In this document: in pieces, positions 4,441 through 23,123 of the stretch
How the letters are laid out: the number at the start of each line of letters is the position of its first letter
Numbering within the stretch: position 1 is the first letter of the stretch
Origin: Gammaproteobacteria bacterium
GTDB lineage: Bacteria > Pseudomonadota > Gammaproteobacteria > GCA-001735895
Length of the DNA: 64,000 nt
Reading direction: 5' to 3'
Assembly (NCBI GenBank): GCA_029862005.1
Contig: JAOTYD010000017.1
Span: forward strand, 1 to 64,000
The notes under the pieces: generated by a model
Told to the model about the DNA's origin: nothing
Seen by the model: the letters and a program-made list of their open reading frames with translations, nothing else
The model's database searches: none
Position numbers and translations under genes: made by a program

Positions 4441-4552
4441 GTCCGTTCCTGGCCGAAGATTGCCTCCTACCTTGACCTGACGAGGGTTCGCTTACGAGAA
4501 AGCTGCCGCTCATATTCAATGAATCAGCGGCGATAAACAACCCATAGCGGAC
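4441..4552. repeat. Dispersed intergenic repeat, copy 3
   Basis: This copy begins gtccgttcctggccgaagat and has the second half gttcgcttacgagaaagctg, ending near aatcagcggcgataaacaac. It belongs to the subtype also seen at 6797, which has cttacgagaaagctgccgct where other copies have tctcctttggagaaagc. It occupies part of the 468-base gap between the antiporter and the Crp/Fnr gene. Nothing else recognisable was seen there. Confidence 0.75.
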
Positions 4553-4746: not shown

Positions 4747-5397
4747 ATGCTGGATTTTCTAGGAACGGTAAACCCGTATGACACCCTCGATGAACGAGAT
4801 CTTCAGTCGCTTGCGAGTATCGCTATCCGGCGGAACTATAAGAAGAATATGTTGGTTATACAGCAGGGTGATGATACCAACACGATGTTCATATTGATCG
4901 AGGGGGAAATGCGGGTTTACGTTGAAGACGAACAGGGGAAGCAGCTAACGATCCGAATCCTCAAATCCGGCGATTTATTTGGTGAAGTTGCGCTGATCGG
5001 GGACATTCCCAGAACCGCTAGTGTCGTGACGATAACCGACTGTGTGGTAGCGGCGTTCGCGCGCGAAAAATACCTGTCTTTTCTGAAACAACATCCAGAG
5101 ATTTTACTTGCGCTCGCTAAAGCCCTGGCCAACATGGTGGGTGATATCACCGAGGAACTCGGCAGTATCGCGTTGTCCGATGTGTATGGCCGCATTACCC
5201 ACATTTTCGAAAAGTATGCCGTCGAGGCTGAAGATCATCGGCTAGTCCCCAGATTTACCCACCGCGAAATTGCAGGCATGATCGGATCCTCACGCGAAAT
5301 GGTCAGCAAGATTCTTAAGGATCTCGAGAACGGCAGTTATATTTCGATAACCGATAAGCACTACGTGATCAACAAGAACCTGCCTGCCAACTGGTAA
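4747..5397 (+). CDS. Crp/Fnr-family transcriptional regulator
   Basis: The 216-residue regulator has an N-terminal cyclic-nucleotide-binding-like beta-roll (about residues 10-115, with GDLFGEVALIG and RTASV in the phosphate-binding cassette position), a dimerisation helix (about 115-145) and a C-terminal Crp-type winged helix with FTHREIAGMIGSSREMVSK as the recognition region. The N-terminal cysteines of oxygen-sensing FNR are absent. The ATG at 4747 is preferred over a TTG 60 bases upstream because the family fold begins here. RTASV and the Glu in FGEVAL suggest a nucleotide ligand could bind, but this is inference. The small genes just downstream are possible targets. Confidence 0.88.
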   Translation: MLDFLGTVNPYDTLDERDLQSLASIAIRRNYKKNMLVIQQGDDTNTMFILIEGEMRVYVEDEQGKQLTIRILKSGDLFGEVALIGDIPRTASVVTITDCVVAAFAREKYLSFLKQHPEILLALAKALANMVGDITEELGSIALSDVYGRITHIFEKYAVEAEDHRLVPRFTHREIAGMIGSSREMVSKILKDLENGSYISITDKHYVINKNLPANW

Positions 5398-5715: not shown

Positions 5716-5898
5716 ATGAAAAAGCGCAATACGGCAAAGCAACAAAAAGGTTTTTTTGATCTGGGTTTTTCGCTGGCGATTTTGGCGCTATTCGGCGCAT
5801 TTGCCTATGCTGTTACGCCAGATCAGGACGCCAGGGTCGCAGTGCAGCAACCGCAAATTGAGGTCGTGGCTAATTACCAAGAGGGAGAAAGAAGATGA
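5716..5898 (+). CDS. Small single-helix membrane protein
   Basis: This 60-residue protein begins MKKRNTAKQQKGFFDLGFS, followed by one hydrophobic segment (about residues 17-33, ending in AFAYAV) and a polar tail. The ATG at 5716 has an agaggga ribosome-binding site about 9 bases upstream. The basic leader followed by KGF and a hydrophobic helix resembles a type IV prepilin N-terminus, but Glu5 of true prepilins is missing (Gly there) and the rest is far too short, so this is a resemblance only. The stop overlaps the next start by ATGA, indicating translational coupling. No family recognised. Confidence 0.55.
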   Translation: MKKRNTAKQQKGFFDLGFSLAILALFGAFAYAVTPDQDARVAVQQPQIEVVANYQEGERR

Positions 5899-6137
5899 AA
5901 AACAAACACATCAAAAACAAAACTTGTGACGAATCACTTCTGGAATACGCCACAACCACCTTCGTACCAATAACAAAGCCCGCAGTTAACGACAGCTACT
6001 CTGAAACAAGAAAGGATATGACAGAGGCTGAGGACAACGGGCAGGTTAAACCGGAAAAACGTGAGCGGGTTTATCTGCACTCGATTGGTCGATTTAGCAA
6101 GCTTAAAAAGCTGCAGAAGGGCGCTTACGAAGATTAA
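5895..6137 (+). CDS. Small basic hypothetical protein, coupled to the preceding gene
   Basis: This 80-residue soluble protein is rich in Lys, Glu and Thr, with no membrane segment. It ends in a conserved-looking stretch, RVYLHSIGRFSKLKKLQKG. Its ATG overlaps the stop of the 60-residue membrane protein (ATGA at 5895-5898), and a gagggag ribosome-binding site lies just upstream at 5881-5887, so the two are probably made together. No known domain is recognised. With the upstream Crp/Fnr gene it forms a small accessory cassette whose role cannot be read from the sequence. Confidence 0.5.
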   Translation: MKNKHIKNKTCDESLLEYATTTFVPITKPAVNDSYSETRKDMTEAEDNGQVKPEKRERVYLHSIGRFSKLKKLQKGAYED

Positions 6138-6189
6138 CTGGTTTGCTTAATAATTGGTGAATGTTGGGAGGACATTTGATTAGAGCCGA

Positions 6190-6301
6190 GAGTCCGTATT
6201 TGGCCGAACTGAGATCCTCGGCACCTGCGTTTCAGCGTCTCCTTTGGAGAAAGCAGGCGCTCGAAATCCAGTAATTAGCGGCGATTTACGACCATAGCAG
6301 T
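6190..6301. repeat. Dispersed intergenic repeat, copy 4
   Basis: This copy begins gagtccgtatttggccgaac and contains cagcgtctcctttggagaaagc and attagcggcgatttacgacc. It shares both boxes with the copies at 2375 and 8084 but has a different spacer. It lies between the 80-residue protein and the riboswitch. Confidence 0.75.
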
Positions 6302-6377
6302 CACCCGGGATTTTAATAGATTAAATCACTTGGACTCTTCCAACGACGGGGCGTATAAAGTGAATCACAATATACAA

Positions 6378-6490
6378 TGATAAAGCCAAACCCGTCTAAA
6401 GACGGGGACGGAAAGCCACGGGTCCTCGCTTCCTCCGAGAAGCCACAGAAAAGCTCCCGGAGGACCCAAGACCGCCGGACTGCCACTTCT
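6378..6490 (+). ncRNA. Cyclic di-GMP riboswitch, GEMM-I class
   Basis: The region matches the GEMM-I aptamer in order: gataaagccaaaccc, a P2 hairpin cccgtc-taaa-gacggg (6391-6406) with GNRA-like loop context, the joining segment gggacggaaagccacggg, a P3 stem gggtcctc (6420-6427) pairing with gaggaccc (6460-6467), and the 3' segment aagaccgccggactgcc. Known GEMM-I RNAs bind c-di-GMP between P1, P2 and P3. The joining segment has ggaaagcc where the consensus has gcaaagcc, and the P3 arm carries an extra hairpin (6428-6443). It stands directly upstream of the 76-residue gene, whose ribosome-binding site is 10-25 bases beyond it, which would suit translational control. Assignment is by eye. Confidence 0.72.
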
Positions 6491-6516
6491 ATACAACAGT
6501 AGAGAGGGGGACGGCT

Positions 6517-6747
6517 ATGAATGTGTCACTGCAAATCGAACCCACTTCAACGAATCGATTGTTAACCTGCTTGGGTTTAGCAATCGATGAGGCTAAGCTG
6601 GTAAGGTCAATCATCGAATCCAAAGACTTGGCCCATAAGTTAAAAAATGAAAAGCCGTTGTCTGAAAAACTGCGCCGTTTAAATAGGGAAATAGAGTATC
6701 TTGAGGCGAAGTTAGCGAAGGTAAGAAGTCGTGCAAACAAGAGCTAA
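6517..6747 (+). CDS. Small helical protein under a predicted c-di-GMP riboswitch
   Basis: This 76-residue protein has no signal peptide or membrane helix. Residues 20-72 are rich in Leu, Lys and Glu, with a heptad-like run (LSEKLRRLNREIEYLEAKLA) suggesting a coiled coil. The ATG at 6517 follows an agaggggg ribosome-binding site, and the GEMM-I aptamer ends about 25 bases upstream. It is the only gene behind the switch before a repeat copy. GEMM-I targets often concern motility, attachment or extracellular structures. No family is recognised, so the function is unknown. Confidence 0.55.
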   Translation: MNVSLQIEPTSTNRLLTCLGLAIDEAKLVRSIIESKDLAHKLKNEKPLSEKLRRLNREIEYLEAKLAKVRSRANKS

Positions 6748-6796
6748 ACATAGCCAGGTATATGCAAAGTGTAGTTTGTGATTTTAATTGTGTGAG

Positions 6797-6890
6797 GGTC
6801 CGCTGTTGGCCGAAGATTGCCTCCCGTCAGGATATTACAAGGGTCCGCTTACGAGAAAGCTGCCGCTCAAACTCGATGCATCAGCGGCAC
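6797..6890. repeat. Dispersed intergenic repeat, copy 5
   Basis: This copy begins gtccgctgttggccgaagat and contains ggtccgcttacgagaaagct and gatgcatcagcggcacacag. It is closest in its second half to the copy at 4441. The rest of the gap to 6988 shows no gene; overlapping open frames there run through the repeat and were not accepted. Confidence 0.75.
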
Positions 6891-6988
6891 ACAGTGCGCG
6901 CGCAGCGGGCACCTAGTCCGATCGACTGCATGCGTTTGTTATGCGGTGGAGTGTATTAGTGATTTCAAACAATCTGGTGATCGCTTGC

Positions 6989-7963
6989 TCATTCTTTACC
7001 GCGTACAACTATCTTCCCACCCGCCTGATTGTCATCCATTAGATTATGAGCTTCTACCAACTCCTCAAAATCAAAAACAGCTCCCGTCTTTACTTCTAGC
7101 TCTCCTTTCTCAACGAGACCGATATATTCCTGTAGTTGTGTGGACGTCAGATCCGCTGCCTCACCGCTATATGAAGTCAGCTTTACCGCTGTAGGTATAT
7201 CTCCCATTGGATGGAAGTCATCGAGTACCCATTTTCCACCAAGAATTCCTGTCATACAAACGATACCACCGCGCCCGACACAACGCAGCGAGTCGAGCAA
7301 AGTGCTGGCGCCGATTAACTCAAGTACTCGATCATAGGGCTTGCCACGTTCATCTTCGATTTGCTGGTGGATTTCGCCATTGTCGATCCAGACTTCGTCT
7401 GCACCTGCAGCTTTGAGTTCACCAATTTTTCCTGAACCGCGAGTAGTAGTACCAACTTCCAACCCGGCGTGCTTGGCCAAGGCCAGGGCAGCCATTCCAA
7501 TCGAAGACGTTCCGCCCCGAATCAATAGAGATTTCGCTCGATTGATCTCGAGTCCGATATGTAACGACCCGTGAGTGGTCTGAAGCATCTCAGGTAGAGC
7601 AGCAAGTTTTTCCCAAGGCAATTGAGTGCGAATCGCGAAAACACACTCATGTGGAACCAAGGTGTATTCTGCATAGGAGCCATCAAATTCACGGCCCATA
7701 CCGCCCATTATCGCAGCAACTGAGGTACCGGGGTCCAAATCCAAACCGCCCGCGTCCACGATTTCTCCCACGCATTCAATTCCAAGGACGCGCGGAAACT
7801 GCACGGTAGGGGAATCTCCTATTCGTGTAAACCACTCTGATCGGTTCAGCCCAAATCCACGAATTCGGATTAGTGCCCAGCCCTTTCGCGGGCTTGGCAT
7901 TTCCGCGTCCTCAAGTTGAAATTGCTCTGGTCCACCAGCTTTCCGAATAATCCAAGCTTTCAT
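6989..7963 (-). CDS. Zinc-independent medium-chain dehydrogenase/reductase, quinone oxidoreductase-like
   Basis: The 324-residue protein starts with the GroES-like domain of MDR enzymes (MKAWIIRKAGGPEQFQLED; GLNRSEW; FPRVLGIECVGEI) followed by a Rossmann domain with LLIRGGTSSIGMAALALAKHAG (about 146-167), the AxxGxxG-like NADP-binding loop of quinone reductases. The structural-zinc cysteine cluster and catalytic-zinc ligands of alcohol dehydrogenases are absent, so it belongs to the zinc-free quinone oxidoreductase/enoyl reductase branch. Its substrate is not predictable. It is monocistronic, between two repeat copies. Confidence 0.85.
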   Translation of the reverse strand: MKAWIIRKAGGPEQFQLEDAEMPSPRKGWALIRIRGFGLNRSEWFTRIGDSPTVQFPRVLGIECVGEIVDAGGLDLDPGTSVAAIMGGMGREFDGSYAEYTLVPHECVFAIRTQLPWEKLAALPEMLQTTHGSLHIGLEINRAKSLLIRGGTSSIGMAALALAKHAGLEVGTTTRGSGKIGELKAAGADEVWIDNGEIHQQIEDERGKPYDRVLELIGASTLLDSLRCVGRGGIVCMTGILGGKWVLDDFHPMGDIPTAVKLTSYSGEAADLTSTQLQEYIGLVEKGELEVKTGAVFDFEELVEAHNLMDDNQAGGKIVVRGKE

Positions 7964-8083
7964 ATTGCGTATCGTTGTTCCTTGGTATGTTGAGATTTCA
8001 TCCTAACCCTTTATCGTTCTGTACCGCATAACAGCACGATTAAAAGGTAGTTGACCTGATAATATATTATGTGTTGCCGGGTT

Positions 8084-8196
8084 TCCGCTACTGGCCGAAG
8101 GTTGCCTCCCAGGTCAGCTTATCGAGCGTCTCCTTTGGAGAGAGCTGGCCATGAAATCTCCAATATCAGCGGCAGAGAACGATCCAAAAGAGACTC
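8084..8196. repeat. Dispersed intergenic repeat, copy 6
   Basis: This copy begins tccgctactggccgaaggtt and continues gtcagcttatcgagcgtctc, then tttggagagagctggcc and atatcagcggcagagaacg. It is the closest relative of the copy at 2375-2488. It fills about a third of the 313-base gap 7964-8276; nothing else was seen in that gap. Confidence 0.8.
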
Positions 8197-19671: not shown

Positions 19672-21171
19672 CTAAATGGAGGTTTCGTCTTTGAAAAAGC
19701 CGAAGTTATTCTTCCCCTGGCGCTTGATCTGGTACATCGCTTTATCCGCCGCTCGTATCAACGCTTCCGCGGTCGTGCCATTTTCCGGATAAATTGAAAT
19801 GCCGATACTTGCGCTAACCACTACCTCGACTTTTTCAACCCGAATCGGTTGTACTATTTGCTTGATCAAACCAGCAGCGATGCGCTCAGCAATGGCAAAC
19901 TCCGGCAGGCTCGATAAAATAATAATGAACTCATCACCACCAATGCGCGCGACGGTATCGGTTTCGCGAATTTCAGCTTTAATACGGAGCGCTGTAGCCT
20001 GCAATACCAGGTCACCGAATTCATGGCCATGCTCATCGTTAATGGCTTTAAATCCATCGAGGTCCAGGAACATGACTGCTGACATGTGTCCCCTGCGACG
20101 CGCCTCGGCGAGCGACTGATCAAGCCGGTCCTTGCAAAGACGCAGACTCGGTAGTCCGGTTAAGGCGTCATGATTCGCCAGGAAGTGGAGCTCGGCAGCG
20201 ATTTTTTCACGTTCCTTTATCTCGCCTTCGAGTTGTTTTACCGTGTCGGCGAGTTTACGGGTCCGGGTCTTTACCATCGCCTCGAGCGAATCACGGGCTT
20301 CGCGCAAACTCCGTTCGGTCTGGGTTTGCTGGGTGATATCCTGTACCACCCCAATCGACTGAACCACATCGCCGCTTGCAGACCGTAACGCGGTGCCCTG
20401 CTCGCGCACCCAGCGCATTTCGCCGTCGGACCGGTGTATCCGGTATTCCACGCTGTAATTCTGGCCGTCCTCTTCATGCCGACTGTATGTTTCCATCAGA
20501 TTTTCCTGGTCTTCAGGGTAAACGTCCTCGATATAATCTGCCCGCGAAGAGACCATGCTCTGGTATTCATCAACCGTGGCGCCGTGAATTCTGGCGAGCC
20601 CCTCGCTGAGGTCGGCATAGGTTGCGGTGATCGGATCATAGGTAAAATGACCGATATCGGTAATCGCCTCGACCTGCTGCGCGATGGCATCGCGGTTTTC
20701 AAGCATTTGCTCGTAGATCCTACGTTCGGTAATGTCCTGCAACAGGCAAAACGAGGAACTTATTTTGCCGTTATCACCCTTTTCAACCATGCCAATTTCA
20801 TAGATGAACCTGACCTCGCCATCGTTACGCAAAATCCGATACTCGATATCGTGCGCACCGGCATTTCCCTGTGAATTATAGGATTGGGTATATAGCGCTC
20901 TGTCCTCCGGATGCACGGTATTTAGCATCAGATCCCAGGCATTTTGCGACTGCATTATCTCGGCGACGGTCTGGTCGAATATACCTGCATAGCCGTTGGA
21001 GCAGGATTTAAGAGATCCGGTTTCGTAATCCCACTCGCAGTGCCCGATATGCGCCACCTGCTCGGTCGCATCGAGAAACAGTTCCTGATGGCGCAGTCTT
21101 TCGACTTCAGCTTCGAGTTCAGAAGTATCCGGGTAATTCTTCGTTTCTGCGGGCAGGCTTAGATCGTTCAT
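19672..21171 (-). CDS. PAS-PAS-GGDEF diguanylate cyclase
   Basis: The 499-residue soluble protein has two PAS/PAC sensor domains (about 35-150 and 160-285), a coiled-coil linker (285-330) and a GGDEF domain (about 333-495). The active-site motif GGDEF is intact at 411-415, and the inhibitory I-site RETD stands at 402-405, five residues before it, so the enzyme should make c-di-GMP with product feedback. No membrane segment is present. It lies 32 bases behind a longer paralogue with a nearly identical GGDEF domain. The riboswitch at 6378 could respond to its product. Confidence 0.9.
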   Translation of the reverse strand: MNDLSLPAETKNYPDTSELEAEVERLRHQELFLDATEQVAHIGHCEWDYETGSLKSCSNGYAGIFDQTVAEIMQSQNAWDLMLNTVHPEDRALYTQSYNSQGNAGAHDIEYRILRNDGEVRFIYEIGMVEKGDNGKISSSFCLLQDITERRIYEQMLENRDAIAQQVEAITDIGHFTYDPITATYADLSEGLARIHGATVDEYQSMVSSRADYIEDVYPEDQENLMETYSRHEEDGQNYSVEYRIHRSDGEMRWVREQGTALRSASGDVVQSIGVVQDITQQTQTERSLREARDSLEAMVKTRTRKLADTVKQLEGEIKEREKIAAELHFLANHDALTGLPSLRLCKDRLDQSLAEARRRGHMSAVMFLDLDGFKAINDEHGHEFGDLVLQATALRIKAEIRETDTVARIGGDEFIIILSSLPEFAIAERIAAGLIKQIVQPIRVEKVEVVVSASIGISIYPENGTTAEALIRAADKAMYQIKRQGKNNFGFFKDETSI

Positions 21172-21203: not shown

Positions 21204-23123
21204 CTAAAGACTCACGGATCCTACGAATCCGAAACTGTTCTTGCCTTTACGCTTGATTTCGTACATGGCCTTGTCAGCCGCCCGAATTAATTTTTCAGCG
21301 GTGGTGCCATGTTCGGGATAAAGTGAAATGCCGATACTCGCGGTTATCGTGACTTCAACGTCTTTGATTTTAAGGGGTTTCGCAACCTGCTCGATCACGG
21401 TTGCCGCGATTCTTTCGGCGATCGCCGTTTCCGGCAAGCTGGACAGGATGATTACAAATTCATCTCCACCGATTCGCGCGACCGTATCCGTTTCGCGAAT
21501 TTCTGACTTGATACGCTCCGCTGTCGTCTTCAATACCATGTCCCCGAAATCATGGCCGTATTGATCGTTAATTTCCTTGAATCCATCCAGGTCCACGAAC
21601 ATGACCGCCGAGGTTTGGCGATTACGGCGCGCTTCTGCGAGGGACTGGTCGAGACGATCCTTGCACAGGCGCAAACTCGGCAGCCCGGTGAGGGCATCGT
21701 GGTTGGCCAAAAAGTCCAGTTCGGCCGCAATTTTTTCGCGTTCTTCAATTTCGACCTGTAGCTGCTTGACGGTATTCGCCAGCTCGCGGGTGCGTTCAAC
21801 GACCTGCTGTTCGAGCGAATCCCTGGCACTTATGATTTCCTGCTCGGACTGTTTCTGCCGGGTGATATCCTGCAGCACACCGATCGATTGCTCCGGTATA
21901 CCATGTGTCATCAGGTAAGCCCGGCCTACCTCACGCACCCAGCGCAACTCTCCGTCGCCACGCTTGAGACGGAATTCCACCTGCCATTCACCCCCCTCGG
22001 AAAGAAACTTGTCGTAAGCCTTTTGTACCCGGGCAAGATCATCGGCATGTATGATTTCGCTGGCACCCTCCGTTGGCACAAGCCTGGTGACAATCTGCTC
22101 GCCGTCCATACCGTAGATACGAGCCAGGCCCGGACTAACGAAGAGGTACTTTTGCTTGATTTCATCGTAGATAAAGTGTCCGATCTCGGTGATGGCCTCG
22201 GCCTGGTTAGCCAGCGCATCCTTGTACAGCAGTTCCTGTTCGCGTGCGACGCGCTCGGTGATATCCTGAATCACACCGAGTGTCTGCTGCACCCCCCCAT
22301 TACTAAATTGCTTGGCCCGGGTCAGTTCGCGCACCCAGCGGATTGAACCATCGGCGCGCTTGATGCGAAATTCCAGTGCGCAATCCTGCCCTGTCTCTAT
22401 GTAGTGGCGATATTCGTCGGCCACGCGCTGGCGATCCTCGCTAACGATATCTGCAAGATCGTCTTCGACGCTGCGCATTTTCTCCTGGTAAGCCTCGGCC
22501 GTGGTTCCGAAAATGCGCGCGCAGCCATCACTGATGTAGACATAGCGCTCCTTGTCCTCGTCGTAGATAAAATGACCGATGTCAGTGATGGCCTCGGTCT
22601 GGCTTGAGAGTTCATCGCGATACTCCAGGTCACGTTCGTACCTGACCTGATCAGAGATGTCCTGCACAATCCCGAAACTACCGTGCTCATTCCCATCATC
22701 GTCAGTTACGATGACTGCAAACTCGCGGATATGCTTTATCGCGCCATTATCCAGTACGATGCGATAGCGGGCATCCAGTATCTTTTTATCCCGTAATGTC
22801 TCCCAGGAATGCCGATAATGTTCCTCGTCATCGGGATGGATTTGCTGCACTGTTTTTTCCCAACTATCCTGATGGGCCAGCGCCTCTTCGATGCTCATGC
22901 CGTAGAGGTTTGCATACTCCTTCGAACAGGATTCAAGCCGATCGAGTTGATAGTTCCACTCGTAGTGACCAATCTTTGCCGCCTGCTCGGTTGCGTCAAA
23001 CAGGCTTTCACGACGCCTCAGCTTTCCCAGTTCGACCTCGAGCTCTTCCCGGGTCAGACTAGAAAACTCTGATGTTGGTGCTTGCTGTGCCTGCGCTACC
23101 GCTAACACATCTATGGTCGGCAT
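21204..23123 (-). CDS. PAS-PAS-PAS-GGDEF diguanylate cyclase
   Basis: The 639-residue protein has three PAS/PAC domains (about 45-155, 180-290 and 310-420), a coiled-coil linker (425-470) and a GGDEF domain (about 473-635). GGDEF is intact at 552-556 and the I-site RETD at 543-546. The linker-GGDEF segment (NHDALTGLPSLRLCKDRLDQ and onward) is almost the same as in the downstream gene, so the two arose by tandem duplication with loss or gain of one PAS domain. No signal peptide or transmembrane helix is present, so it senses a cytoplasmic cue. Confidence 0.9.
   Translation of the reverse strand: MPTIDVLAVAQAQQAPTSEFSSLTREELEVELGKLRRRESLFDATEQAAKIGHYEWNYQLDRLESCSKEYANLYGMSIEEALAHQDSWEKTVQQIHPDDEEHYRHSWETLRDKKILDARYRIVLDNGAIKHIREFAVIVTDDDGNEHGSFGIVQDISDQVRYERDLEYRDELSSQTEAITDIGHFIYDEDKERYVYISDGCARIFGTTAEAYQEKMRSVEDDLADIVSEDRQRVADEYRHYIETGQDCALEFRIKRADGSIRWVRELTRAKQFSNGGVQQTLGVIQDITERVAREQELLYKDALANQAEAITEIGHFIYDEIKQKYLFVSPGLARIYGMDGEQIVTRLVPTEGASEIIHADDLARVQKAYDKFLSEGGEWQVEFRLKRGDGELRWVREVGRAYLMTHGIPEQSIGVLQDITRQKQSEQEIISARDSLEQQVVERTRELANTVKQLQVEIEEREKIAAELDFLANHDALTGLPSLRLCKDRLDQSLAEARRNRQTSAVMFVDLDGFKEINDQYGHDFGDMVLKTTAERIKSEIRETDTVARIGGDEFVIILSSLPETAIAERIAATVIEQVAKPLKIKDVEVTITASIGISLYPEHGTTAEKLIRAADKAMYEIKRKGKNSFGFVGSVSL

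Follow-up and report, generated by a model that had tools for sequence, protein, structure and literature searches.

A c-di-GMP-I riboswitch with a conserved P3 extension has probably captured a gene for a predicted helical-hairpin protein

The ligand pocket and the helix-packing contacts of c-di-GMP-I (GEMM-I) riboswitches are described residue by residue (PMC4744006, PMC3764141). One of these RNAs, the Vc1 riboswitch of gbpA in Vibrio cholerae, has no apparent terminator or anti-Shine-Dalgarno sequence, and the gbpA product is secreted and was detected in the culture supernatant (PMC4744006). Here we describe a member of this class ahead of a 76-codon gene in a window of 64,000 nucleotides, which is the whole stretch of DNA that we analyzed. 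Our reading of the locus, to which we assign a probability of roughly 0.7, is that a long-P3 c-di-GMP-I riboswitch exerts translational control over a single captured helical-hairpin gene, and that the two were joined by rearrangement. The features are as follows:

6182-6293, + strand: upstream copy of a dispersed repeat (~100 bp), within which synteny with the congener G030 breaks, at ~6205 and ~6225-6234
6330-6359, + strand: candidate promoter, TTGGAC-18-TATAAA, unchanged in G030 and also retained in a second congener, G013; a weak match to the consensus
6376-6488, + strand: GEMM-I (c-di-GMP-I) riboswitch aptamer, by Rfam score
6385, + strand: G20 equivalent, a ligand contact, from the Rfam consensus alignment and the residues named in PMC4744006
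6386-6411, + strand: P2 arm with inner pair CC/GG and a UAAA terminal loop, from a 19-sequence alignment
6412-6414, + strand: equivalents of A47-A48-A49 (J2-3, ligand pocket); A47 is canonical, and the RF03167 consensus has G
6415-6482, + strand: P3 arm, including its extension
6425-6469, + strand: conserved P3 extension with helix UCCUCCG/CGGAGGA and competing complementarity GGGUCCUCG/CGGAGGACCC, from the 19-sequence alignment
6474-6516, + strand: P3 3' strand GCCGGAC and short leader, with a linker, CGGC before the AUG and a predicted hairpin at the ribosome-binding site (RBS)
6483, + strand: C92 equivalent, a ligand contact
6501-6510, + strand: Shine-Dalgarno sequence AGAGAGGGGG, inside which DNA similarity to G013 stops, at 6508
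6517-6747, + strand: 76-aa gene of a lineage-restricted paralogous family, predicted to form an antiparallel helical hairpin
6793-6900, + strand: downstream copy of the dispersed repeat, in the same orientation as the upstream one

The riboswitch at 6376-6488 belongs to a known class, GEMM-I. The one Rfam match over threshold in the whole 64-kb window is RF03167 at 6376-6488 (+), with 62.7 bits (gathering score 59; E 1.9e-12). The RF01051 model matches 6375-6487 with 54.8 bits, against a curated cut-off of 35. The initial annotation had placed a GEMM-I aptamer ahead of the small gene and anticipated a match to RF01051 at 6378-6490, and the scores over both curated cut-offs agree with this. A permissive Rfam scan of 6300-6560 returned nothing further that was credible. 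When the RNA is aligned to the Rfam consensus, the ligand-contact bases G20, A47, A48 and C92 (Vc2 numbering) fall on G6385, A6412, A6413 and C6483, as in ordinary c-di-GMP-I RNAs, and the C44-G83 interhelical pair is present as C6409 and G6474. Judged by its sequence, the c-di-GMP-I riboswitch looks functional and its ligand pocket is canonical, and we infer that its ligand is c-di-GMP.

The inner pair of P2 is swapped, being C21:G46 rather than the canonical G21:C46. This position covaries among the 19 long-P3 RNAs described below (GC in 10, CG in 9). Because a pattern scan of GTDB genomes found the swap to be common in Deltaproteobacteria and others, we do not consider it special to this RNA. 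The P2 terminal loop is UAAA here and GAAA or NAAA in relatives; in the Mg2+ riboswitch, a CAAA loop adopts a GNRA-like fold (PMC3764141). One P3 pair is C.A in the window RNA and C-G in most relatives. Since the loop is UAAA instead of GNRA and this pair is C.A, the affinity of the window RNA for its ligand may be reduced. Across the 19 RNAs, 92.2% of cells are paired and six pairs show double changes. The double-changed cells number 31, compared to 11.1 in shuffles, with none of 500 shuffles reaching as high a count; the double changes sit in P2, in its inner pair and in the extension, and none are in lower P3.

The P3 extension is 44 nt long and conserved in sequence, starting with GGGUCCUCGCUUCCUCCG and ending with CGAAGGACCC. 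It is carried by the window RNA, by the congeners G030 and G013, by G046 (from another family), by G206, and by three or four named draft genomes (L087, which is labelled Poribacteria, L119, L121 and L150). A covariance model built from seven RNAs yielded 19 long-P3 RNAs, with L041 a weak one among them. They come from several lineages, and 10 of the 19 are paralogues in one genome, G206. The 5' half of the extension is nearly invariant across the set, while P2 varies freely, with strong covariation in P2 and in the swapped pair. The extension helix, UCCUCCG/CGAAGGA, contains a C.A mismatch in 16 of the 19, a C-G pair in two (the window RNA included) and a U-A pair in G030. Conservation extends to a mutually exclusive second helix, GGGUCCUCG/CGAAGGACCC, which is the one that RNAalifold favors. 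Two 5' repeats, UCCUCG and UCCUCCG, therefore compete for a single 3' strand, CGAAGGA, and one of the repeats competes with P3 itself as well; that they constitute a working switch is conjecture. A limited literature search did not return a description of the extension, and as far as we could find, the long-P3 RNAs are an undescribed GEMM-I sub-type. Elsewhere, the genes downstream of long-P3 RNAs mostly encode exported proteins (ankyrin-repeat proteins with signal sequences, a TonB receptor and lipoproteins, the signals being judged by eye).

Several observations concern individual relatives. G206 holds ten copies of the long-P3 riboswitch (L232-L241), mostly ahead of genes for exported proteins, and the insert apex in these copies takes one of two forms, GAGAAGCC or GCGACGCC. 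Two members of the sub-type, L039:216-322 and L240:3041-3147, have A at position 20. G046 contains truncated or rearranged GEMM-I-like leaders (L041, L043 and L044) in which the P2 arm is kept and P3 is lost; by eye, a putative lipoprotein gene lies downstream of L043 and a putative metallopeptidase gene downstream of L044.

We then considered how the RNA might act on the gene. A promoter scan of the + strand did not recover the candidate promoter at 6330-6359. The end of the aptamer and the start of the 76-codon ORF are 29 nt apart, and a scan of the + strand found no intrinsic terminator in the leader, which led us to reject a transcription terminator. Because the 29-nt leader holds a Shine-Dalgarno sequence and no terminator, control would most likely be exerted at translation initiation. 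Ligand binding would keep the 3' strand of P3 (GCCGGAC) within the aptamer; without ligand, this strand would be free to pair with the CGGC that precedes the AUG. In unconstrained folding of the window and G013 RNAs, lower P3 is broken and its 3' strand pairs just 5' of the AUG, and on the basis of these modelled folds we lean slightly towards an ON switch. We rejected pairing between the P3 strand and the RBS as the expression platform. The window, G013 and G030 RNAs hint at such pairing, yet over 14 loci the complementarity (mean -10.3 kcal/mol, versus -9.6 and -9.9 kcal/mol in shuffles) was not above chance, and enforcing P3 in the energy model did not expose the Shine-Dalgarno sequence (unpaired probability going from 0.31 to 0.28).

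The 76-codon ORF is a real gene, since it has homologues (34-64% identity) and a pN/pS far below 1: against the nearest relative, L017, pN is 0.23 and pS is 0.93, with an excess of changes at third positions. Purifying selection on the ORF is clear. AlphaFold2 predicts two antiparallel helices (pLDDT 87). The lone small coiled-coil gene that had been proposed downstream of the riboswitch is present, as a predicted helical hairpin at 6517-6747. It is not the orphan it was taken for, being one of four paralogues in this genome (in the window and on contigs C5, C2 and C30). Its members occur in 35 of 190 genomes, which all belong to two genera of the same bacterial family as the window, and a genome can carry as many as six copies. 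The accompanying statement that the protein matches no known family holds for the databases: Pfam gave at best 13.9 bits (cut-off 30.8), NCBIfam 15.4 (cut-off 336) and PHROGs nothing, and a PDB profile search returned designed or generic coiled coils alone, with E 0.0012 or worse. It does not hold for the lineage, which has a family of its own. Foldseek matches were likewise confined to generic coiled coils of two helices (best E 0.64), and we therefore assign no function from the fold. A viral or phage origin was also rejected, as neither viral contigs nor PHROGs contained a match. The protein has no signal peptide. In the protein tree, the window copy is not firmly placed; the nearest rows are L017 and L018, both without riboswitches, and an Rfam riboswitch was found within about 1.5 kb at none of 19 homologous gene loci. 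Further downstream, the first gene-sized frame with an assigned family (6989-7963) runs on the other strand, so that the 76-aa gene is most likely the sole target of the riboswitch. That the protein is a new c-di-GMP effector is conjecture, the one argument for it being its linkage to the riboswitch.

The genome encodes enzymes for c-di-GMP. The two I-site diguanylate cyclases that the initial annotation had pointed out 13-17 kb away are indeed encoded there, as PAS-GGDEF proteins at 19672-21171 (-) and 21204-23123 (-) with RETD, the RxxD I-site motif, five residues before GGDEF. However, these are two of about 33 GGDEF domains in the genome, so their proximity is uninformative, and we rejected a functional link to them. 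Four further GEMM-I RNAs score 74-83 bits with RF01051. Three of these precede genes whose products, read by eye, are lipoproteins or exported proteins bearing Ig-like or fibronectin-like repeats, and the frame that follows the fourth, on contig C13, starts like a lipoprotein. On contig C61, two GEMM-I riboswitches (L014:4265-4350 and 5221-5306, -) lie about 960 bp apart, each heading its own gene for a secreted repeat protein, with a C-terminal domain in common with the one on contig C45. By eye, CRP-like TGTGA-N6-TCACA elements can be seen 5' of canonical GEMM-I riboswitches at L002:1440-1470, L003:890-915 and L004:1630-1650 (-).

The origin of the pairing is suggested by the congeners. The module made up of promoter region, aptamer and Shine-Dalgarno sequence is 83-92% identical in two of them. 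In G013, identity is 82.8% over 180 bp (6330-6508), ending inside the Shine-Dalgarno sequence, and the module heads a gene for an exported ankyrin protein at a spacing equal to the window's. In G030, identity is 91.7% over 264 bp (6234-6496), and the module precedes a decayed frame that has no start codon at the equivalent position. The genes upstream in the window lie elsewhere in G030, on contig C8, and are 88% identical to about 6205, where similarity ends. Both G030 breakpoints fall in the dispersed repeat, which flanks the riboswitch-gene cassette on two sides. The genome contains at least 40 copies of this repeat, which is also found in the congeners and goes with synteny breaks; its copies in the window are at 1471-1543, 2376-2466, 4441-4531, 6182-6293, 6793-6900 and 8083-8173. 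Repeat-mediated rearrangement would be the simplest reading. A rearrangement, probably between dispersed repeats, would have put the helical-hairpin gene behind a ready-made promoter-riboswitch-RBS module. Because the module heads other genes in the congeners and the G030 breaks fall in the flanking repeat, it is probable that the riboswitch captured the gene. Among the 31 genomes of the genus, six have any GEMM-I RNA and the pairing occurs in this one only, a single draft assembly; it is probably derived and species-specific. Upstream, and downstream of a Crp-family regulator, two small ORFs overlap (5716-5898 and 5895-6137), one of them with a transmembrane segment. The DNA of the former is 82-88% identical in six congeners, that of the latter is matched in G030 and G009, and neither ORF has a database family.

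Capture need not mean regulation. A real riboswitch could sit in front of the gene by accident, with no selected output, the gene being expendable there or expressed regardless. The restriction of the pairing to one genome of 31, the decayed reading frame behind the G030 module, and the export of the products of the other riboswitch genes, which the 76-aa protein does not share, are all consistent with this. On the other hand, the aptamer pocket, promoter-like boxes, Shine-Dalgarno sequence and reading frame are all intact, and the codons are constrained, although not testably since the capture. We regard such a passive arrangement as possible but doubtful. A spurious ORF, with the riboswitch acting on some other target, is extremely improbable: the ORF is small and lacks a database family, but it has homologues in 35 genomes, its pN/pS and third-position changes are those given above, and the gene that follows it lies on the other strand.

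The remaining alternatives concern the RNA. In GEMM-I RNAs, A at position 20 goes with cGAMP specificity, and the A20 of L039 and L240, together with the higher score of the window RNA with RF03167 (62.7 versus 54.8 bits), could suggest that the ligand is 3',3'-cGAMP or that of the c-di-GMP-I-GGC variant class. Yet the window RNA has G20, A47 and C92. At the A47 column, the RF03167 consensus has G (GACGCGAA) and the window RNA has A6412 (GACGGAAA); that G at this position defines the GGC class is our own reading of its name and printed consensus. Moreover, L037 scores best with RF03167, but L038, L039, L041 and L043 do so with RF01051, including the close relatives L038 and L039. We therefore rejected a GGC-variant sensor; the RF03167 label is probably a scoring effect, perhaps of that model's long open P3 loop, and another ligand is quite improbable. 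Somewhat less remote, but still unlikely, is that the P3 extension serves as an additional regulatory element (a site for a second ligand or a protein, or a strand-exchange switch), such that the RNA integrates two signals. The near-invariance of its 5' half while P2 changes freely would fit this, as would the competition of UCCUCG and UCCUCCG for CGAAGGA and of one of them with P3. Against it, GEMM-I RNAs commonly have extended P3 arms, a single genome accounts for 10 of the 19 RNAs as paralogues, and no Rfam family matches the extension. On a similarly speculative footing, the long-P3 sub-type might be a distinct architecture in which the two insert repeats, vying for one strand, couple ligand binding to the ribosome site, with the module spreading by dispersed-repeat recombination and the hairpin protein now under c-di-GMP control.

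Translational control of one captured gene by a long-P3 c-di-GMP-I riboswitch remains our preferred reading. Riboswitch re-wiring becomes testable here, since sister species have unrelated genes behind a single promoter-riboswitch-RBS module, and the locus draws attention to a conserved GEMM-I P3 extension and to a multi-copy family of uncharacterized proteins.

Compared with the RF01051 riboswitches Vc1 and Vc2 of Vibrio cholerae, the window RNA has the same P2/P3 architecture, G20, A47-A49, C92, the C44-G83 pair and a single gene downstream, but differs in having C21:G46 rather than G21:C46, a UAAA loop and a 44-nt conserved P3 extension. c-di-GMP-I-GGC (RF03167) is the best-scoring covariance model and tolerates a long P3 loop, whereas its consensus reads G where the window RNA has A47. 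The 3',3'-cGAMP riboswitches of Geobacter (GEMM-Ib) share the scaffold, and the sub-type members L039 and L240 share A20 with them, in contrast to the window RNA, which has G6385 at that position. Like the Vc1 riboswitch of gbpA, this is a c-di-GMP-I RNA with neither a terminator nor an anti-Shine-Dalgarno sequence apparent; the gbpA product, however, is secreted, whereas the 76-aa protein carries no signal peptide.
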